Positions 44,380 to 54,400 of a stretch of DNA of 64,000 nt are shown here, piece after piece (position 1 is the stretch's first letter; each line of letters begins with the position of its first letter). Source of the DNA: Prosthecobacter debontii (GTDB lineage: Bacteria > Verrucomicrobiota > Verrucomicrobiia > Verrucomicrobiales > Verrucomicrobiaceae); assembly GCF_900167535.1 (NCBI RefSeq), contig NZ_FUYE01000009.1:186001-250000 (forward strand). The letters are read 5' to 3'. The notes below the pieces were generated by a model, which was not told where the DNA came from, ran no database searches, and worked only from the letters and a program-made list of their open reading frames with translations. Position numbers and translations under genes: made by a program.

Positions 44380-47412
<3,033 letters not shown>

Positions 47413-47462: not shown

Positions 47463-47498
47463 AAAAGCCCTGCGAGGAAATACCTCGCAGGGCTTTTT
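47463..47498 (+). terminator. Intrinsic terminator of ppdK
   Basis: Fifteen-bp perfect stem AAAAGCCCTGCGAGG (47463-47477) / CCTCGCAGGGCTTTT (47483-47497), loop AAATA, then T. Confidence 0.94.
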
Positions 47499-48033: not shown

Positions 48034-49446
48034 ATGAAGGTTAATAACACCATTGTCGTCTCCATCGGCCAAGCTGGTAATCAGATTGCCGCTTCGTTTT
48101 GGAAAACCATCTGTCAGGAACACGGGATCGATCCCCTCACGGGTCAGACCGCAGGAGGAGCGACGCCACGTGGAAATTGGAGTGCTTTCTTTTCGAGCCT
48201 TGGCGACTCTGGAGGCGGTAGCTTCGTGCCAAGAGCGGTGATGGTGGATTTGGAGCCCAGCGTCATCAATCAAGTGAAGTCCACCAGTGGGTCTTTGTTT
48301 AACCCGGCGAATTTGATCTCGCGCACGGAAGGTGCGGGGGGAAACTTCGCCGTGGGGTATCTCGGAGCCGGCCGTGAGGTGCTGCCTGAGGTCATGAGCC
48401 GCTTGGACTTCGAGATCGATAAGTGTGACAATGTCGGCGGCATCATTGTGCTGCATGCCATCGGCGGCGGTTCCGGCTCAGGGTTGGGCTGCTTGCTCAT
48501 CGAGTCTTTGAAGGAAAAGTATCCTGAATATCCGGTGTTGAGCTGCGCGGTATTGCCCTCGCCGCAGGTCTCCTCCGTGGTGACGGAGCCCTACAATACG
48601 GTCTTTGCCCTCAACACGCTGCGCCGTGCTGCCGATGCGTGTTTGATCTTTGATAACGAGGCCCTGTTTGATTTGGCCCACCGTAAGTGGAACATCGAAA
48701 GCCCGACGGTGGATGACCTGAACCTGCTCATTACCGAGGCCTTGGCGGGCATCACGGCGTCCATGCGTTTCAGCGGTTTCTTGACGGTGGAAATCAGTCT
48801 GCGTGAGCTGCTCACCAATCTGGTGCCGCAGCCCTCTCTGCACTTCCTGATGTGCGCCTTCGCCCCGCTGACGGCTCCTGACCGGAGCAAGTTCGAGGAG
48901 ATGGGCATCGAGGATATGATCAGATCTCTCTTCGATAACGACTCGGTTTACGCCGCATGTTCACCCATGGAAGGCCGTTTCCTTAGCACCGCGGTTCTGT
49001 ATCGCGGCATCATGGAGGATAAGCCGCTGGCAGATGCTGCGCTCGCGGCGATGCGTGAGAAGCTGCCGCTGACTTACTGGATCCCGACCGCTTTCAAAAT
49101 TGGTTATGTGGAGCAGTCCGGTATTTCTCACCGGAAGAGCATGGTGCTGCTGGCGAACAACACGGAGATTGCCCGCGTGCTGGATCGGATCTGCCACAAC
49201 TTTGACAAGCTCTGGCAGCGCAAAGCCTTTGCCAATTGGTATCTGAACGAGGGCATGTCCGAAGAGCAGATCAATGGCCTTCGAGCCTCGGCTCAGGAGT
49301 TGATCCAGAGCTACCAAGTGGCGGAAGAAAGCGGGGCCAAAGCGAAGATCCAAGACGTGTCTGGGGAGACGGTTTCCCGTTCCAGTTCCATGGATGACCC
49401 ACGCAGCACCATGAGCTTGCGCGATCTGGTAGAGCGCCGTCGCTGA
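48034..49446 (+). CDS. btubA: Bacterial tubulin BtubA
   Basis: A 470-residue tubulin-family GTPase that co-polymerises with BtubB into bacterial mini-microtubules. The T1 loop is VSIGQAGNQIAASFW, the T4 signature HAIGGGSGSGLG (about residues 142-153) and the T7 region SLRELLTNLVPQPSLHF, with Glu four residues before NLVP as in alpha-tubulin, consistent with GTPase activation of the partner. The serine in GGGSGSG replaces the usual threonine of the tubulin signature. The C-terminus (MSLRDLVERRR) is basic and lacks the acidic eukaryotic tail. The close match along its length to the BtubA of Prosthecobacter that I remember makes the assignment firm. No clear Shine-Dalgarno precedes the ATG. First gene of the operon. 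Confidence 0.98.
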   Translation: MKVNNTIVVSIGQAGNQIAASFWKTICQEHGIDPLTGQTAGGATPRGNWSAFFSSLGDSGGGSFVPRAVMVDLEPSVINQVKSTSGSLFNPANLISRTEGAGGNFAVGYLGAGREVLPEVMSRLDFEIDKCDNVGGIIVLHAIGGGSGSGLGCLLIESLKEKYPEYPVLSCAVLPSPQVSSVVTEPYNTVFALNTLRRAADACLIFDNEALFDLAHRKWNIESPTVDDLNLLITEALAGITASMRFSGFLTVEISLRELLTNLVPQPSLHFLMCAFAPLTAPDRSKFEEMGIEDMIRSLFDNDSVYAACSPMEGRFLSTAVLYRGIMEDKPLADAALAAMREKLPLTYWIPTAFKIGYVEQSGISHRKSMVLLANNTEIARVLDRICHNFDKLWQRKAFANWYLNEGMSEEQINGLRASAQELIQSYQVAEESGAKAKIQDVSGETVSRSSSMDDPRSTMSLRDLVERRR

Positions 49447-49493: not shown

Positions 49494-49508
49494 GGAGGAA
49501 ACATAGTG
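49494..49508 (+). promoter_or_regulatory. Strong ribosome binding site that fixes the GTG start of btubB
   Basis: GGAGG at 49494-49498 is seven bases from GTG 49506. btubA, at the head of the operon, has no comparable site, so BtubB may be initiated more efficiently per transcript. Confidence 0.85.
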
Positions 49509-50786
49509 AGAGAGATTTTGAGCATTCACGTCGGTCAGTGTGGCAACCAAATCGCCGATCGGTTTTGGCGTTTGGCTTTGCGTGAGCATGGCTTGACGGA
49601 GGCGGGAACGCCTAAAGATGGCGCCGCCGTCGCAGCTAATACCAACATGGAAGTCTTCTTCCACAAGGTGCGTGATGGGAAGTATGTGCCCCGCGCCGTT
49701 TTGGTGGACCTTGAGCCTGGAGTCATCGCCCGAATCGAGGGCGGGGACATGTCCCAGCTCTTCGATGAAAGCAGCATCGTCCGGAAGATCCCAGGGGCCG
49801 CGAACAATTGGGCTCGCGGTTACAATGTGGAAGGTGAGCGCGTGATCGATCAGATCATGAACGTGATCGATAGTGCCGTGGAGAAGACCAAAGGATTGCA
49901 AGGCTTCCTGATGACGCATTCCATCGGTGGCGGTTCGGGCTCGGGATTGGGCTCGCTCATTCTAGAGCGTCTTCGTCAGGCTTATCCGAAGAAGCGCATC
50001 TTCACCTTTTCGGTGGCCCCCTCGCCCCTCATCTCCGATTCAGCCGTCGAGCCTTACAACGCCATCCTGACGCTTCAGCGCATCTTGGATCATGCGGATG
50101 GCGCGGTCATTTTGGATAACGAGGCGCTCTTCCGCATCGCGAAAGCCAAGCTGAATCGCAGCCCGAATTACATGGACTTGAATCACATCATCGCGCTGAT
50201 CGTCAGCTCGGTGACGGCTTCACTCCGCTTCCCTGGTAAGCTGAATACGGATCTCAGTGAGTTCGTGACCAACCTCGTGCCCTTCCCTGGCAACCACTTC
50301 CTGACCGCCAGCTTCGCTCCCATGCGTGGCCCCGGGCAGGAGGGGCAACTCCGCCCGAATTTCCCTGAATTAGCTCGTGAGACCTTTGCCCAAGACAACT
50401 TCACTGCGGCCATCGATTGGCAGCAGGGGGTTTACCTCGCCGCCAGCGCCCTCTTCCGTGGGGATGTGAAGGCGAAGGAAGTGGATGAAAACATGGCCAG
50501 CATCCGCAAGTCTTTGAACTACGCCAGCTACATGCCCGCCTCTGGCGGTCTGAAACTTGGTTATGCCGAGACAGCCCCGGAAGGCTTTGCCTCCAGTGGT
50601 CTCGCTTTGGTCAATCACACCGGGATTGCCGCTGTCTTTGAGCGTTTGATCTCTCAGTTTGACATCATGTTCGACAATCATGCCTACACCCATTGGTATG
50701 AGAATGCAGGGGTGTCTCGCGAGATGATGGCTCAAGCCCGCAATCAGATCGCCCAACTTGCTCAATCTTATCGCGATGCCAGTTAG
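49506..50786 (+). CDS. btubB: Bacterial tubulin BtubB
   Basis: A 426-residue tubulin-family GTPase, partner of BtubA. It begins MREILSIHVGQCGNQIADRF, which resembles beta-tubulin. T4 is HSIGGGSGSGLGS (about residues 139-151), again with Ser for Thr. The T7 region LNTDLSEFVTNLVPFP carries the alpha-type catalytic Glu, so both chains have the residue that only alpha-tubulin has in eukaryotes. The product is about 44 residues shorter than BtubA and ends at IAQLAQSYRDAS, without an acidic tail. It starts with GTG behind a strong SD, 59 bp after btubA. Confidence 0.98.
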   Translation: MREILSIHVGQCGNQIADRFWRLALREHGLTEAGTPKDGAAVAANTNMEVFFHKVRDGKYVPRAVLVDLEPGVIARIEGGDMSQLFDESSIVRKIPGAANNWARGYNVEGERVIDQIMNVIDSAVEKTKGLQGFLMTHSIGGGSGSGLGSLILERLRQAYPKKRIFTFSVAPSPLISDSAVEPYNAILTLQRILDHADGAVILDNEALFRIAKAKLNRSPNYMDLNHIIALIVSSVTASLRFPGKLNTDLSEFVTNLVPFPGNHFLTASFAPMRGPGQEGQLRPNFPELARETFAQDNFTAAIDWQQGVYLAASALFRGDVKAKEVDENMASIRKSLNYASYMPASGGLKLGYAETAPEGFASSGLALVNHTGIAAVFERLISQFDIMFDNHAYTHWYENAGVSREMMAQARNQIAQLAQSYRDAS

Positions 50787-50820: not shown

Positions 50821-51591
50821 GTGGACTCCCCTCTCGATCGTCAGCTCGCTGCCGCCTCTCGCAGTGTCGAAGAGGCGCGGAGAATGGCTTATCACGACGA
50901 TTCGAAGATCGGGTATCTGGTGGAGCAGATCAGCGTGCTGGCAGATCTGCGGCAGAAAGAGGGAGACTTCCGCAAGGCCGAGTCGCTGTATCGTGAGGCG
51001 CTATTCAGCGCTCAGGAGCAGCGTAAGCCGGACCCGGAGTTGCTGACGGGCATCCATTCCTTGCTGGCGCATCTGTATGATCGCTGGGGCCGGATGGATC
51101 TCGCCTCGCAGTTTTATGAGAAAGCCCTGAAGATCGCCGAGCGAGGCGGCATCGCCCAGAGTGATAAGGTGGCGATCATCAAAAACAATCTGGCGATGAT
51201 CTTCAAGCAGCTCCGTGACTACACCCGTGCGGAGCAGCACTACCAAGAGGCGCTGGAAATCTTCCGCAAAACGGATGGTGAATACAGCGCTCGGGTGGCT
51301 AGCGTTTTTAACAATCTCGGGGTGCTATATTACAGCAACCTGGAGGTCGAGCAGGCGCAGGAGATGCATGAGCATGCGTTGACGATTCGGCAGAGCCTTT
51401 CGAATGATCAGGCGGACTCGGGGGATCTCTCACAGACCTACATCAATCTCGGCGCTGTTTATAAAGCGGCGGGAGATTTTCAGAAAGCTGAGGCCTGTGT
51501 GGATCGTGCTAAGAAGCTGCGGGCCAGCATGAATGGCTACCACCCGCAGCCGCGCCGTGCGGCGTCTTTGCTTGTCGATAAATCCCTGTGA
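50821..51591 (+). CDS. bklc: Bacterial kinesin-light-chain-like TPR protein
   Basis: A 256-residue tetratricopeptide protein. After a helical N-terminus (about residues 1-40) come four to five repeats of about 42 residues, the kinesin-light-chain spacing: LYREALFSAQE, FYEKALKIAERGG, HYQEALEIFRKTDG, MHEHALTIRQSL, CVDRAKKLRASM. In Prosthecobacter the third gene of the btub operon encodes this protein, reported to bind BtubAB filaments; there is no motor domain. I use GTG 50821, 34 bp after btubB; an ATG at 50884 is an alternative. Its stop overlaps the next small gene by 4 bp. Confidence 0.95.
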   Translation: MDSPLDRQLAAASRSVEEARRMAYHDDSKIGYLVEQISVLADLRQKEGDFRKAESLYREALFSAQEQRKPDPELLTGIHSLLAHLYDRWGRMDLASQFYEKALKIAERGGIAQSDKVAIIKNNLAMIFKQLRDYTRAEQHYQEALEIFRKTDGEYSARVASVFNNLGVLYYSNLEVEQAQEMHEHALTIRQSLSNDQADSGDLSQTYINLGAVYKAAGDFQKAEACVDRAKKLRASMNGYHPQPRRAASLLVDKSL

Positions 51592-51827
51592 ATCCTGAGT
51601 TTTCCCATCTCCACCAGTTGCTGCGCCAGCGGCTGGACCTCATTGCTGACCACGCTTTTCGTGATCGTGATCCCTCGGCCCATCTGGCTGAGCTTCAGCG
51701 GCTGTCGGAGGCTCTCGCGGCGGAGCATCAGCGTCTCAAGCCCAAGCTCCCGCCACGACTGAATCATTATCTGGTGCAATCGAGCCTGGTGAAGGCCCTG
51801 GATTTCCTCGAAGGGCGGGCCGAGTGA
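51588..51827 (+). CDS. Small helical protein, fourth gene of the btub operon (unknown function)
   Basis: A 79-residue protein whose GTG start overlaps the bklc stop in GTGA, the usual layout for translational coupling. Codon third positions are GC-rich (roughly two thirds by eye), as expected for a real gene here. The protein is Leu/Glu/Arg-rich and probably all-helical: FSHLHQLLRQRLDLI, LAELQRLSEALAAEHQRL, then HYLVQSSLVKALDFLEGR. The heptad-like leucines allow a short coiled coil. No signal peptide, membrane segment or known domain. About 98 bp separates it from the next gene, which is an unrelated secreted enzyme. By position it is a candidate accessory factor of BtubAB or Bklc; this is inference only. 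Confidence 0.75.
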   Translation: MNPEFSHLHQLLRQRLDLIADHAFRDRDPSAHLAELQRLSEALAAEHQRLKPKLPPRLNHYLVQSSLVKALDFLEGRAE

Positions 51828-51925: not shown

Positions 51926-54400
51926 ATGAATCTTTTGCGCTGCCTCGCCTTCAGTCTCTTTTTACCCATGGGGTTATGGGGGGCGTTTCCCTCGCTGTAT
52001 CTGAAGAACATCTGTGATGGCCAGATCCACGCCCCCACCAACATCACCCACGCCGGGGATGGCAGCGGGCGGCTTTTCATCTGTGATCAGATCGGCAAGA
52101 TCTACATCTTCAGCCAGGGGATGCTCCAGCCCAAGCTGTTCCTCGATCTCTCCGCGAGCGGATTGAACCGTGTGTTTGTCGGCACCAACCTGAACAGCTA
52201 TTCGGAGCGTGGTTTGTTAGGCATGACCTTTCATCCCGATTATGAGCATCCCTTCGCACCGGGGTATCGGCGGTTTTATGTGAACTACACCGCTCCTGCG
52301 AGCACTGCGACGGATCATTCTTCGGACCCGCAGAACTGTGTCACCGTGATTGCGGAGTTCCGCGTGTCTGAGGACGATCCCAATCTCGCCGATGTCACCA
52401 CCGAGCGCCTCGTGCTGAGTTACGGCCAGCCGCAGCCCAATCACAATGGCGGCCAGCTCGCCTTCGGGCCAGATAAGATGCTCTACATCGGCAGCGGGGA
52501 TGGCGGCAGCGCCAATGACAATGCTGAGGGGCATACGGGCGGCAGTGGCACTTCCAGTCCTGGTCGGGTGACGGGAACCCTCGGCAACGCCCAAGACAAG
52601 ACCAAGCTGCTGGGCAAGATCCTGCGCATCGACCCGCTCGGCACCAACGGCCCAGGCGGCGCATATGGCATCCCAACGGATAACCCGTTCGCCAATTCGG
52701 TGGGCATGGAGCGAAAGGAGATTTATGCCTGGGGGCTGCGCAACCCTTGGCGCCTCTCGTTCGATACGCCTGAAGAGGGACCTGCCCGATTGTTCTGCGC
52801 GGATGTGGGGCAAAATGATGTGGAAGAGGTGGATCTCATCACCTCCGGTGGAAACTATGGCTGGCGCGTGAAGGAGGGGAGCTTGGACTTTGACAACACC
52901 ACGCCCTATGGCGGTGGCAGCCTCATTGGCCCGATTGCCGAATATGCGCATCCGAGTGCGAGCTTGGAGGGCACGGATTCGATGCCGAAATACGGCACCT
53001 CCATCACCGGAGGGTATGTCTATCGTGGCACTGCGATTCCTGGTTTGCAGGGGAAGTATCTCTTCGGAGACTATGCCGAGAATGGCATCGGTAACGGTGG
53101 CGGAGTGCTTTTGGGATTGGAGGAAACCACCCCGGGGGTGTTTGCTCTGAGTGAAGTCACGCCATTCAATAGCTTACCCGCTTCCGCTCGCATCTACGCC
53201 TTTGGCGAGGATGAAGCGGGAGAGCTTTACATCGCCGTGAAAACGACCTCAGGCGTCACCTCATTGAGCGGCGGTCGGCCAGCCGGTATCCTTTATAAAG
53301 TGCAGCCTGTCGCTGAAACCCCGATCCAACTGACAGCGGTGGCGGACAATACCCTGTATGAGCCGAACGGATCGGTCACGAGCAATGCCAAGGGCATCTA
53401 TCTTTTTGCCGGAAAGACCGGGGAAAGCGCCAATTACAAGGTCCGGCGTGCGGTTATGAAGTTCGATGTCAGTGGTCTGCCTTCGGATGTGACCTTCACC
53501 TCAGCGGCGTTACGTCTGCATCTGAATATGCAAGTGGGGCAGGACTTCACGATGAATTTGCATCGACTGTCTGAAAGTTGGGGGGAAGGCACCTCCAATG
53601 CAGGCTCACCAGGAGGTAATGGGATTACGGCAACCACCGGAGACGCCACCTGGAACCATCGTTTTTACAACACCACCGCCTGGACGAATCCAGGGGGAGA
53701 CTATGAGGCGCAGGCCTCGGCCAGTTACGTGATTGGTTCGTCCCTTTCAGATCCCTATCCCACTTGGCAGAGTGCTAAATTGCTTGAAGACGTTTTGGAT
53801 TGGAAAGCCACTCCGAGCAGCAATCAGGGCTGGATCTTGATCGGGGATGAGAACCAAACTTTCACGGCCCAGCGTTTCTCCAGCCGAGAAAACACCACCG
53901 CAGGCAATCGCCCGACGCTCATCGTCAACTATGCCTCGGCCCCCAGCCCAACCCATTATGAAGCCTGGTTGGCAGAACATTTCCCGGAAGAGCCCGTCGG
54001 TTTCTATCTGGATCCCTATGGCGACTTGGATAACGACGGTATTTTCAATCTCCATGAATACGCCTTTGGCCGCAGTCCCTGGGTGAAGGATGAAGAACCG
54101 GGACTCACCACCAGCACTCAGCCCGGTTCCGCAGGCAGCACGCTGCACATTTTAAGATTCTGGCGAGACAGCGCGGCGACCGATCTCAGTTATCAGCTCC
54201 AGACCAGTGCCGACCTCGTGACTTGGAAAACCATCGCTACCAGCCTCGCTGGCACCACCGCCATTGGGAGCAACGGCGGGGTGGTGCTTTCAGATACTCC
54301 AGGCACAGGCACCCTGCGCCTCGTCACCGTGCGGGAGACGCTGGCTGCCGGGGCCAACTCTCGGCGCTTTGTCCGGCTGCATGTGACTCGGTCGTATTGA
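51926..54400 (+). CDS. Secreted PQQ-dependent sugar dehydrogenase with DNRLRE-like domain
   Basis: An 824-residue exported protein. ATG 51926 (MNLLRCLAFSLFLPMGLWGA) begins the signal peptide; 18 more codons are open upstream without support. Residues about 20-460 are the glucose/sorbosone dehydrogenase propeller: HAGDGSGRLFICDQIGKIYI, SERGLLGMTFHPDY, HNGGQLAFGPDKMLYIGSGD and ADVGQNDVEEVDLI. Residues about 480-670 are a beta-sandwich of the DNRLRE type (FDVSGLPSDVTFTSAALRLH; DATWNHRFY). The C-terminal part has a Verrucomicrobia tail module (DLDNDGIFNLHEYAFGRSP) and a jelly-roll-like end. Likely oxidises aldoses outside the cytoplasmic membrane. Confidence 0.88.
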   Translation: MNLLRCLAFSLFLPMGLWGAFPSLYLKNICDGQIHAPTNITHAGDGSGRLFICDQIGKIYIFSQGMLQPKLFLDLSASGLNRVFVGTNLNSYSERGLLGMTFHPDYEHPFAPGYRRFYVNYTAPASTATDHSSDPQNCVTVIAEFRVSEDDPNLADVTTERLVLSYGQPQPNHNGGQLAFGPDKMLYIGSGDGGSANDNAEGHTGGSGTSSPGRVTGTLGNAQDKTKLLGKILRIDPLGTNGPGGAYGIPTDNPFANSVGMERKEIYAWGLRNPWRLSFDTPEEGPARLFCADVGQNDVEEVDLITSGGNYGWRVKEGSLDFDNTTPYGGGSLIGPIAEYAHPSASLEGTDSMPKYGTSITGGYVYRGTAIPGLQGKYLFGDYAENGIGNGGGVLLGLEETTPGVFALSEVTPFNSLPASARIYAFGEDEAGELYIAVKTTSGVTSLSGGRPAGILYKVQPVAETPIQLTAVADNTLYEPNGSVTSNAKGIYLFAGKTGESANYKVRRAVMKFDVSGLPSDVTFTSAALRLHLNMQVGQDFTMNLHRLSESWGEGTSNAGSPGGNGITATTGDATWNHRFYNTTAWTNPGGDYEAQASASYVIGSSLSDPYPTWQSAKLLEDVLDWKATPSSNQGWILIGDENQTFTAQRFSSRENTTAGNRPTLIVNYASAPSPTHYEAWLAEHFPEEPVGFYLDPYGDLDNDGIFNLHEYAFGRSPWVKDEEPGLTTSTQPGSAGSTLHILRFWRDSAATDLSYQLQTSADLVTWKTIATSLAGTTAIGSNGGVVLSDTPGTGTLRLVTVRETLAAGANSRRFVRLHVTRSY

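Follow-up and report, generated by a model that had tools for sequence, protein, structure and literature searches.

A fourth gene behind bklc in the bacterial tubulin operon of one Prosthecobacter clade is very probably a core gene captured by the operon rather than a tubulin partner

The bacterial tubulin (btub) operon of Prosthecobacter has been described as a unit of three genes, btubA-btubB-bklc, and two such operons have been reported for P. debontii (PMC3232192, PMC5372463). The product of the third gene, Bklc (bacterial kinesin light chain), needs no fourth protein to bind Btub filaments and lipid vesicles in vitro (PMC5372463). The operon analyzed here has the same first three genes in the same order, but it differs from the described one in a fourth, coupled gene after bklc, which is found in one clade only and which belongs to an older family that is independent of btub.

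The analyzed window is the whole stretch of 64,000 nucleotides from the P. debontii genome, and the operon lies on its forward strand. The genes btubA (48034..49446, + strand, 470 aa) and btubB (49506..50786, + strand, 426 aa, GTG start) encode bacterial tubulins A and B, both with matches to Pfam Tubulin and Tubulin_C, and bklc (50821..51591, + strand, 256 aa) encodes a protein with matches to Pfam TPR families and 66-84% identity to its full-length relatives. The fourth gene, here called orf4 (51588..51827, + strand, 79 aa, 9.2 kDa), begins with a GTG at 51588, so that it shares the four nucleotides GTGA (51588..51591, + strand) with the bklc stop codon TGA (51589-51591); it ends with a TGA at 51827, and 98 bp separate it from the ATG of the next gene at 51926. 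The first-pass annotation had placed this frame, its start inside the bklc stop and the following gap in the same way, and its remark on gene-like codon use is borne out by the G+C content at the three codon positions, which is similar in orf4 (0.79/0.36/0.66) and bklc (0.64/0.38/0.70). The promoter scan gave no signal above shuffles. A second btub operon of the same genome, in agreement with the reports for P. debontii, was located outside the window (G000:C9:13216-16908, locus L090). It is diverged, with BtubA 79% and Bklc 69% identical, and no same-strand frame of at least 50 codons starts within about 150 bp of its bklc stop.

orf4 is a genuine gene. Homologs without in-frame stops (E<=1e-19) were found in 47 of the 48 Prosthecobacter genomes, and the sole genome without one (G009) is 81% complete. 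The purifying selection for which the annotation had suggested a check was found, and it is strong: pairwise dN/dS is mostly 0.02-0.2, not near 1, where dS is measurable, the silent sites being saturated in many pairs of the core clade. The AlphaFold2 model, built with 7 sequences from the window and other loci, has a mean pLDDT of 93.4 and a pTM of 0.80. The helical character proposed earlier is right, but the model consists of five helices (residues 3-20, 22-27, 29-53, 56-63 and 67-74) separated by DSSP breaks, and two of the helices are short. The best-conserved part covers residues L54-L71 (51747..51800, + strand) with the motif LPxRLxH[FY]LxQxSxxKAL, as seen in alignments A2 and A5, in the conservation analysis and in the class-level matches, and its residues L54, L58, H60, L62, Q64, S66, K69, A70 and L71 lie in a region that is nearly invariant among 62 family sequences. 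It is this part, too, through which the weakly similar families of the class match. One in-frame stop each was observed in two homologs from the order (G108:C26:16849-17076 and G240:C117:3906-4127), possibly due to decay or sequencing errors.

Searches with orf4 (A2 members and class-level relatives) gave no significant Pfam or NCBIfam match at curated cut-offs and no significant PDB sequence match, and searching with the model through Foldseek and VIA-align returned generic helical matches only, none of them significant, with uS15 at the top. The best structural alignments are with the uS15 family (Z of about 7 over 67 residues at 2.8-3.1 A, VIA-align 2), but the Foldseek E-value is about 3 and the Z score is below the tool's meaningful level for helical bundles. 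There is also no sequence relation to uS15, with an hhalign probability of 0.4% against one S15 sequence and no Pfam match, and the pI of the window orf4 protein is near-neutral. None of the searched family libraries has a model for this family of small proteins, which is uncharacterised and almost universal in Verrucomicrobiaceae.

Within the family orf4 was found by profile A1 in 67 of 68 genomes, including all 47 high-quality genomes and all 11 genera, with one copy per genome except for a second partial match in G012. Within the order profile A2 matched 232 of 387 genomes; as just 14 candidates per genome were scored, the absences at this level are soft, and no copy was found by profiles A2 and A5 in any listed case of genus g12, which has genomes of 2.2-3.5 Mb and is probably Akkermansia. 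In other families of the class, profile A5 matched 8 genomes nearly over the full length (E<=1e-19) and gave many further matches mainly through the C-terminal half. Among the same 48 Prosthecobacter genomes orf4 is present in 47, bklc in 36 and btubA in 34. The genomes having orf4 without any bklc or btubA match are G002, G003, G015, G016, G020, G031, G032, G037, G039, G042, G045 and G046, of which G020, G032, G039, G042 and G045 are less than 90% complete, and gaps in incomplete assemblies can mimic the absence of btub.

The position directly behind bklc is far more restricted. The 4-nt overlap (GTGA or ATGA) occurs in 11 genomes of the genus, this one and 10 relatives, and the remaining bklc-bearing genomes have other sequence behind bklc and orf4 elsewhere. 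The coupled fourth gene which the annotation had added to the three-gene operon is real in this lineage, and its expected presence after bklc in close relatives fails in most of the genus. In the rpoB tree the genus falls into two well-supported halves, and all 11 linked copies belong to one of them (clade I). No orf4 follows bklc in the clade II genomes, in G006, G017 and G019, or in the second operon of this genome. The tree of BtubA, BtubB and Bklc agrees with rpoB in broad outline and holds the clade II copies in one supported group, with limited support inside clade I. These patterns fit a btub operon inherited vertically within the genus with several losses, and they likewise fit one origin of the orf4-bklc linkage, inside clade I or at its base, with a later reversal in the G006/G017/G019 group; independent gains may also have occurred.

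One genome has preserved orf4 after the decay of its neighbour. In G002 a bklc stub of 41 residues (193-233) stands just upstream of an intact orf4, no full bklc and no btubA match were found, and orf4 has a dN/dS of 0.035-0.045 against the bklc-linked sisters G027 and G028. Apart from G002, no bklc or btub relics were found upstream of orf4 in btub-less genomes. The C-terminal motif QSSLQKALDW is common to G007, where orf4 is linked, and its btub-less rpoB sister G031, and G002 and G027/G028 also have the same orf4 C-terminal motif. As the motif is the same with and without btub, it gives no sign of adaptation to tubulin.

Since orf4 occurs across the order and also in relatives without tubulin, it is most likely a passenger that joined the btub operon. 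The gene is a real, clade-specific fourth gene of this operon, and we consider it very likely that it is a conserved core gene captured behind bklc, with a role independent of tubulin, and not a partner of tubulin. It belongs, as a single copy, to the core genes of Verrucomicrobiaceae and of much of Verrucomicrobiales, and its product would be a small, soluble and compact helical protein whose housekeeping role requires no tubulin; near-universal presence in the family and retention without btub argue for such a role. Its older position in the family would be divergent from dnaA, and in Prosthecobacter it has left dnaA and, in one clade, has come to stand directly behind bklc. Given the stop/start overlap, orf4 of this clade is very probably co-transcribed with the btub operon and translationally coupled to it, and the linkage may last owing to a need for the captured gene itself rather than to any service to BtubAB. 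Against this account stand the persistence of the overlap in species of the clade that have diverged far (dS high to saturated), which a functional coupling would explain also, and the faster change of orf4, measured against rpoB, within the linked core clade. Knocking out the btub operon in P. debontii or P. dejongeii-type strains could also delete or silence a conserved core gene of which the cell has no other copy, and this would confound the phenotypes.

The neighbours of orf4 outside Prosthecobacter offer some hints on its role. Of 20 family genomes outside Prosthecobacter, 17 have orf4 and dnaA in divergent orientation with gaps of 186-345 bp, and dnaN often stands after dnaA; of 20 sampled loci from other families, 11 have dnaA on the opposite strand no more than about 2.5 kb away, and a sodium-solute-symporter-like gene often stands in between, these three gene names being read from the sequence without a family search. 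In Opitutales-like families (L304-L308, L310-L313, L321-L323) most relatives of orf4 stand in divergent orientation to a sucA-like gene. A SUI1-like (SUI1-domain) gene comes after the relative in seven of these loci, with a 4-nt overlap in two. Several of the Opitutales-like relatives have a Cys/Gly-rich C-terminal tail. A partnership of orf4 with a SUI1 protein, as these neighbours may suggest, does not carry over here, as no SUI1 match was found in G000, G001 and G004. Because dnaA, and in other families SUI1 and genes of a ribosomal-protein region, are found next to orf4, the likeliest guess, which we hold with low confidence, is that the product acts in information processing (replication or translation), as an adaptor that binds proteins and docks through its conserved C-terminal helical hairpin.

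A special case of the housekeeping role is that of a lineage-specific partner or regulator of DnaA or of helicase loading, which we regard as rather unlikely. The frequent dnaA neighbourhood speaks for it, and mapping in another verrucomicrobium placed the origin of replication 250 nt upstream of dnaA (PMC2474590). In Prosthecobacter, however, the linkages of dnaA with orf4 and with dnaN are both lost, and no dnaN was found near dnaA in the sampled loci of the genus (L299-L303, L202-L231), unlike in many other family genomes. The 17 gaps between dnaA and orf4 contained a single DnaA box, a one-mismatch site in G052, and no GC-skew switch was seen at the gap in a sample that included G011, whose neighbour is not that dnaA; a position of orf4 at the origin, or an origin between the two genes, is therefore unsupported. 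The A/T-rich gap has shared words which are mostly A/T-rich, as compared with mononucleotide shuffles only. The different neighbours in the Opitutales-like relatives and the lack of a copy in the Akkermansia-like genomes also speak against a replication role, and the dnaA neighbourhood may be an old synteny without functional meaning. The helicase operator DciA, likewise a small protein, was considered in view of this neighbourhood. It has no sequence match to orf4, PF05258 gave no Pfam match among 23 orf4 members, and a DciA gene is separately present in this genome, as in 44 of the 48 genomes of the genus, so orf4 is not its replacement. The dnaA neighbourhood makes a replication role of the family testable.

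Besides the captured core gene, a co-option may be considered, in which the ancient core protein of the bklc-coupled clade would in addition have come to serve the Btub cytoskeleton, for example as a partner of Bklc or by connecting microtubules to the cell cycle. In its favour are the retention of the overlap by 11 genomes of a single clade and the rate of change: the median orf4/rpoB rate ratio is 6.0 for the linked core, against 4.0 for unlinked clade I and 3.0 for clade II, about twofold faster in the linked core than in clade II (pairs not independent), which could reflect an altered function. The linked group also includes G004, whose BtubB is identical over 426 residues to that of PDB 2btq/5o09, which we take to be P. 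dejongeii. On the other side, the motif is unchanged by the presence of btub in sister genomes, strong constraint persists in G002 after the loss of bklc, the second btub operon has no orf4, and Bklc reaches filaments and vesicles in vitro unaided (PMC5372463), so that a co-option appears distinctly unlikely. Still more specific, and quite improbable, is a wiring in the one clade that includes the species with crystallised BtubAB, where this ancient neighbour of dnaA would be tied by translation to the btub operon and would couple microtubule production or Bklc anchoring to the chromosome or the cell cycle.

The annotation had favoured orf4 as a part of the tubulin system, and a dedicated fourth component that was acquired and inherited together with btubAB is indeed what its position and coupling in the window would suggest. 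Such a component should be absent without btub, whereas orf4 is near-universal in the family and stands in btub-less genomes. Most of the genus carries it apart from btub, it follows bklc neither in the other clade nor in the second operon, and it survived the loss of bklc in G002. As a general statement, a dedicated component is refuted by this distribution, and we consider it scarcely credible. Finding a fourth gene in the btub operon is no evidence for a new tubulin partner, and this tempting reading is corrected here. A chance open frame downstream of bklc, to which the short length and the lack of a match in Pfam or NCBIfam might point, is refuted by the order-wide homologs, a dN/dS well below 1 and the confident fold.

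Upstream of btubA, a frame resembling pyruvate phosphate dikinase was observed at 44380-47412 of the window. It continues in frame into a lysine/alanine/proline-rich, histone-H1-like tail with KKAAPA repeats. This tail opens with a candidate start of its own ([10 protein letters not shown]), and the frame may be a fusion or two genes. Between this dikinase-like gene and btubA, at 47463-47497, lies a terminator-like stem-loop of 15 pairs with a T-rich tail.
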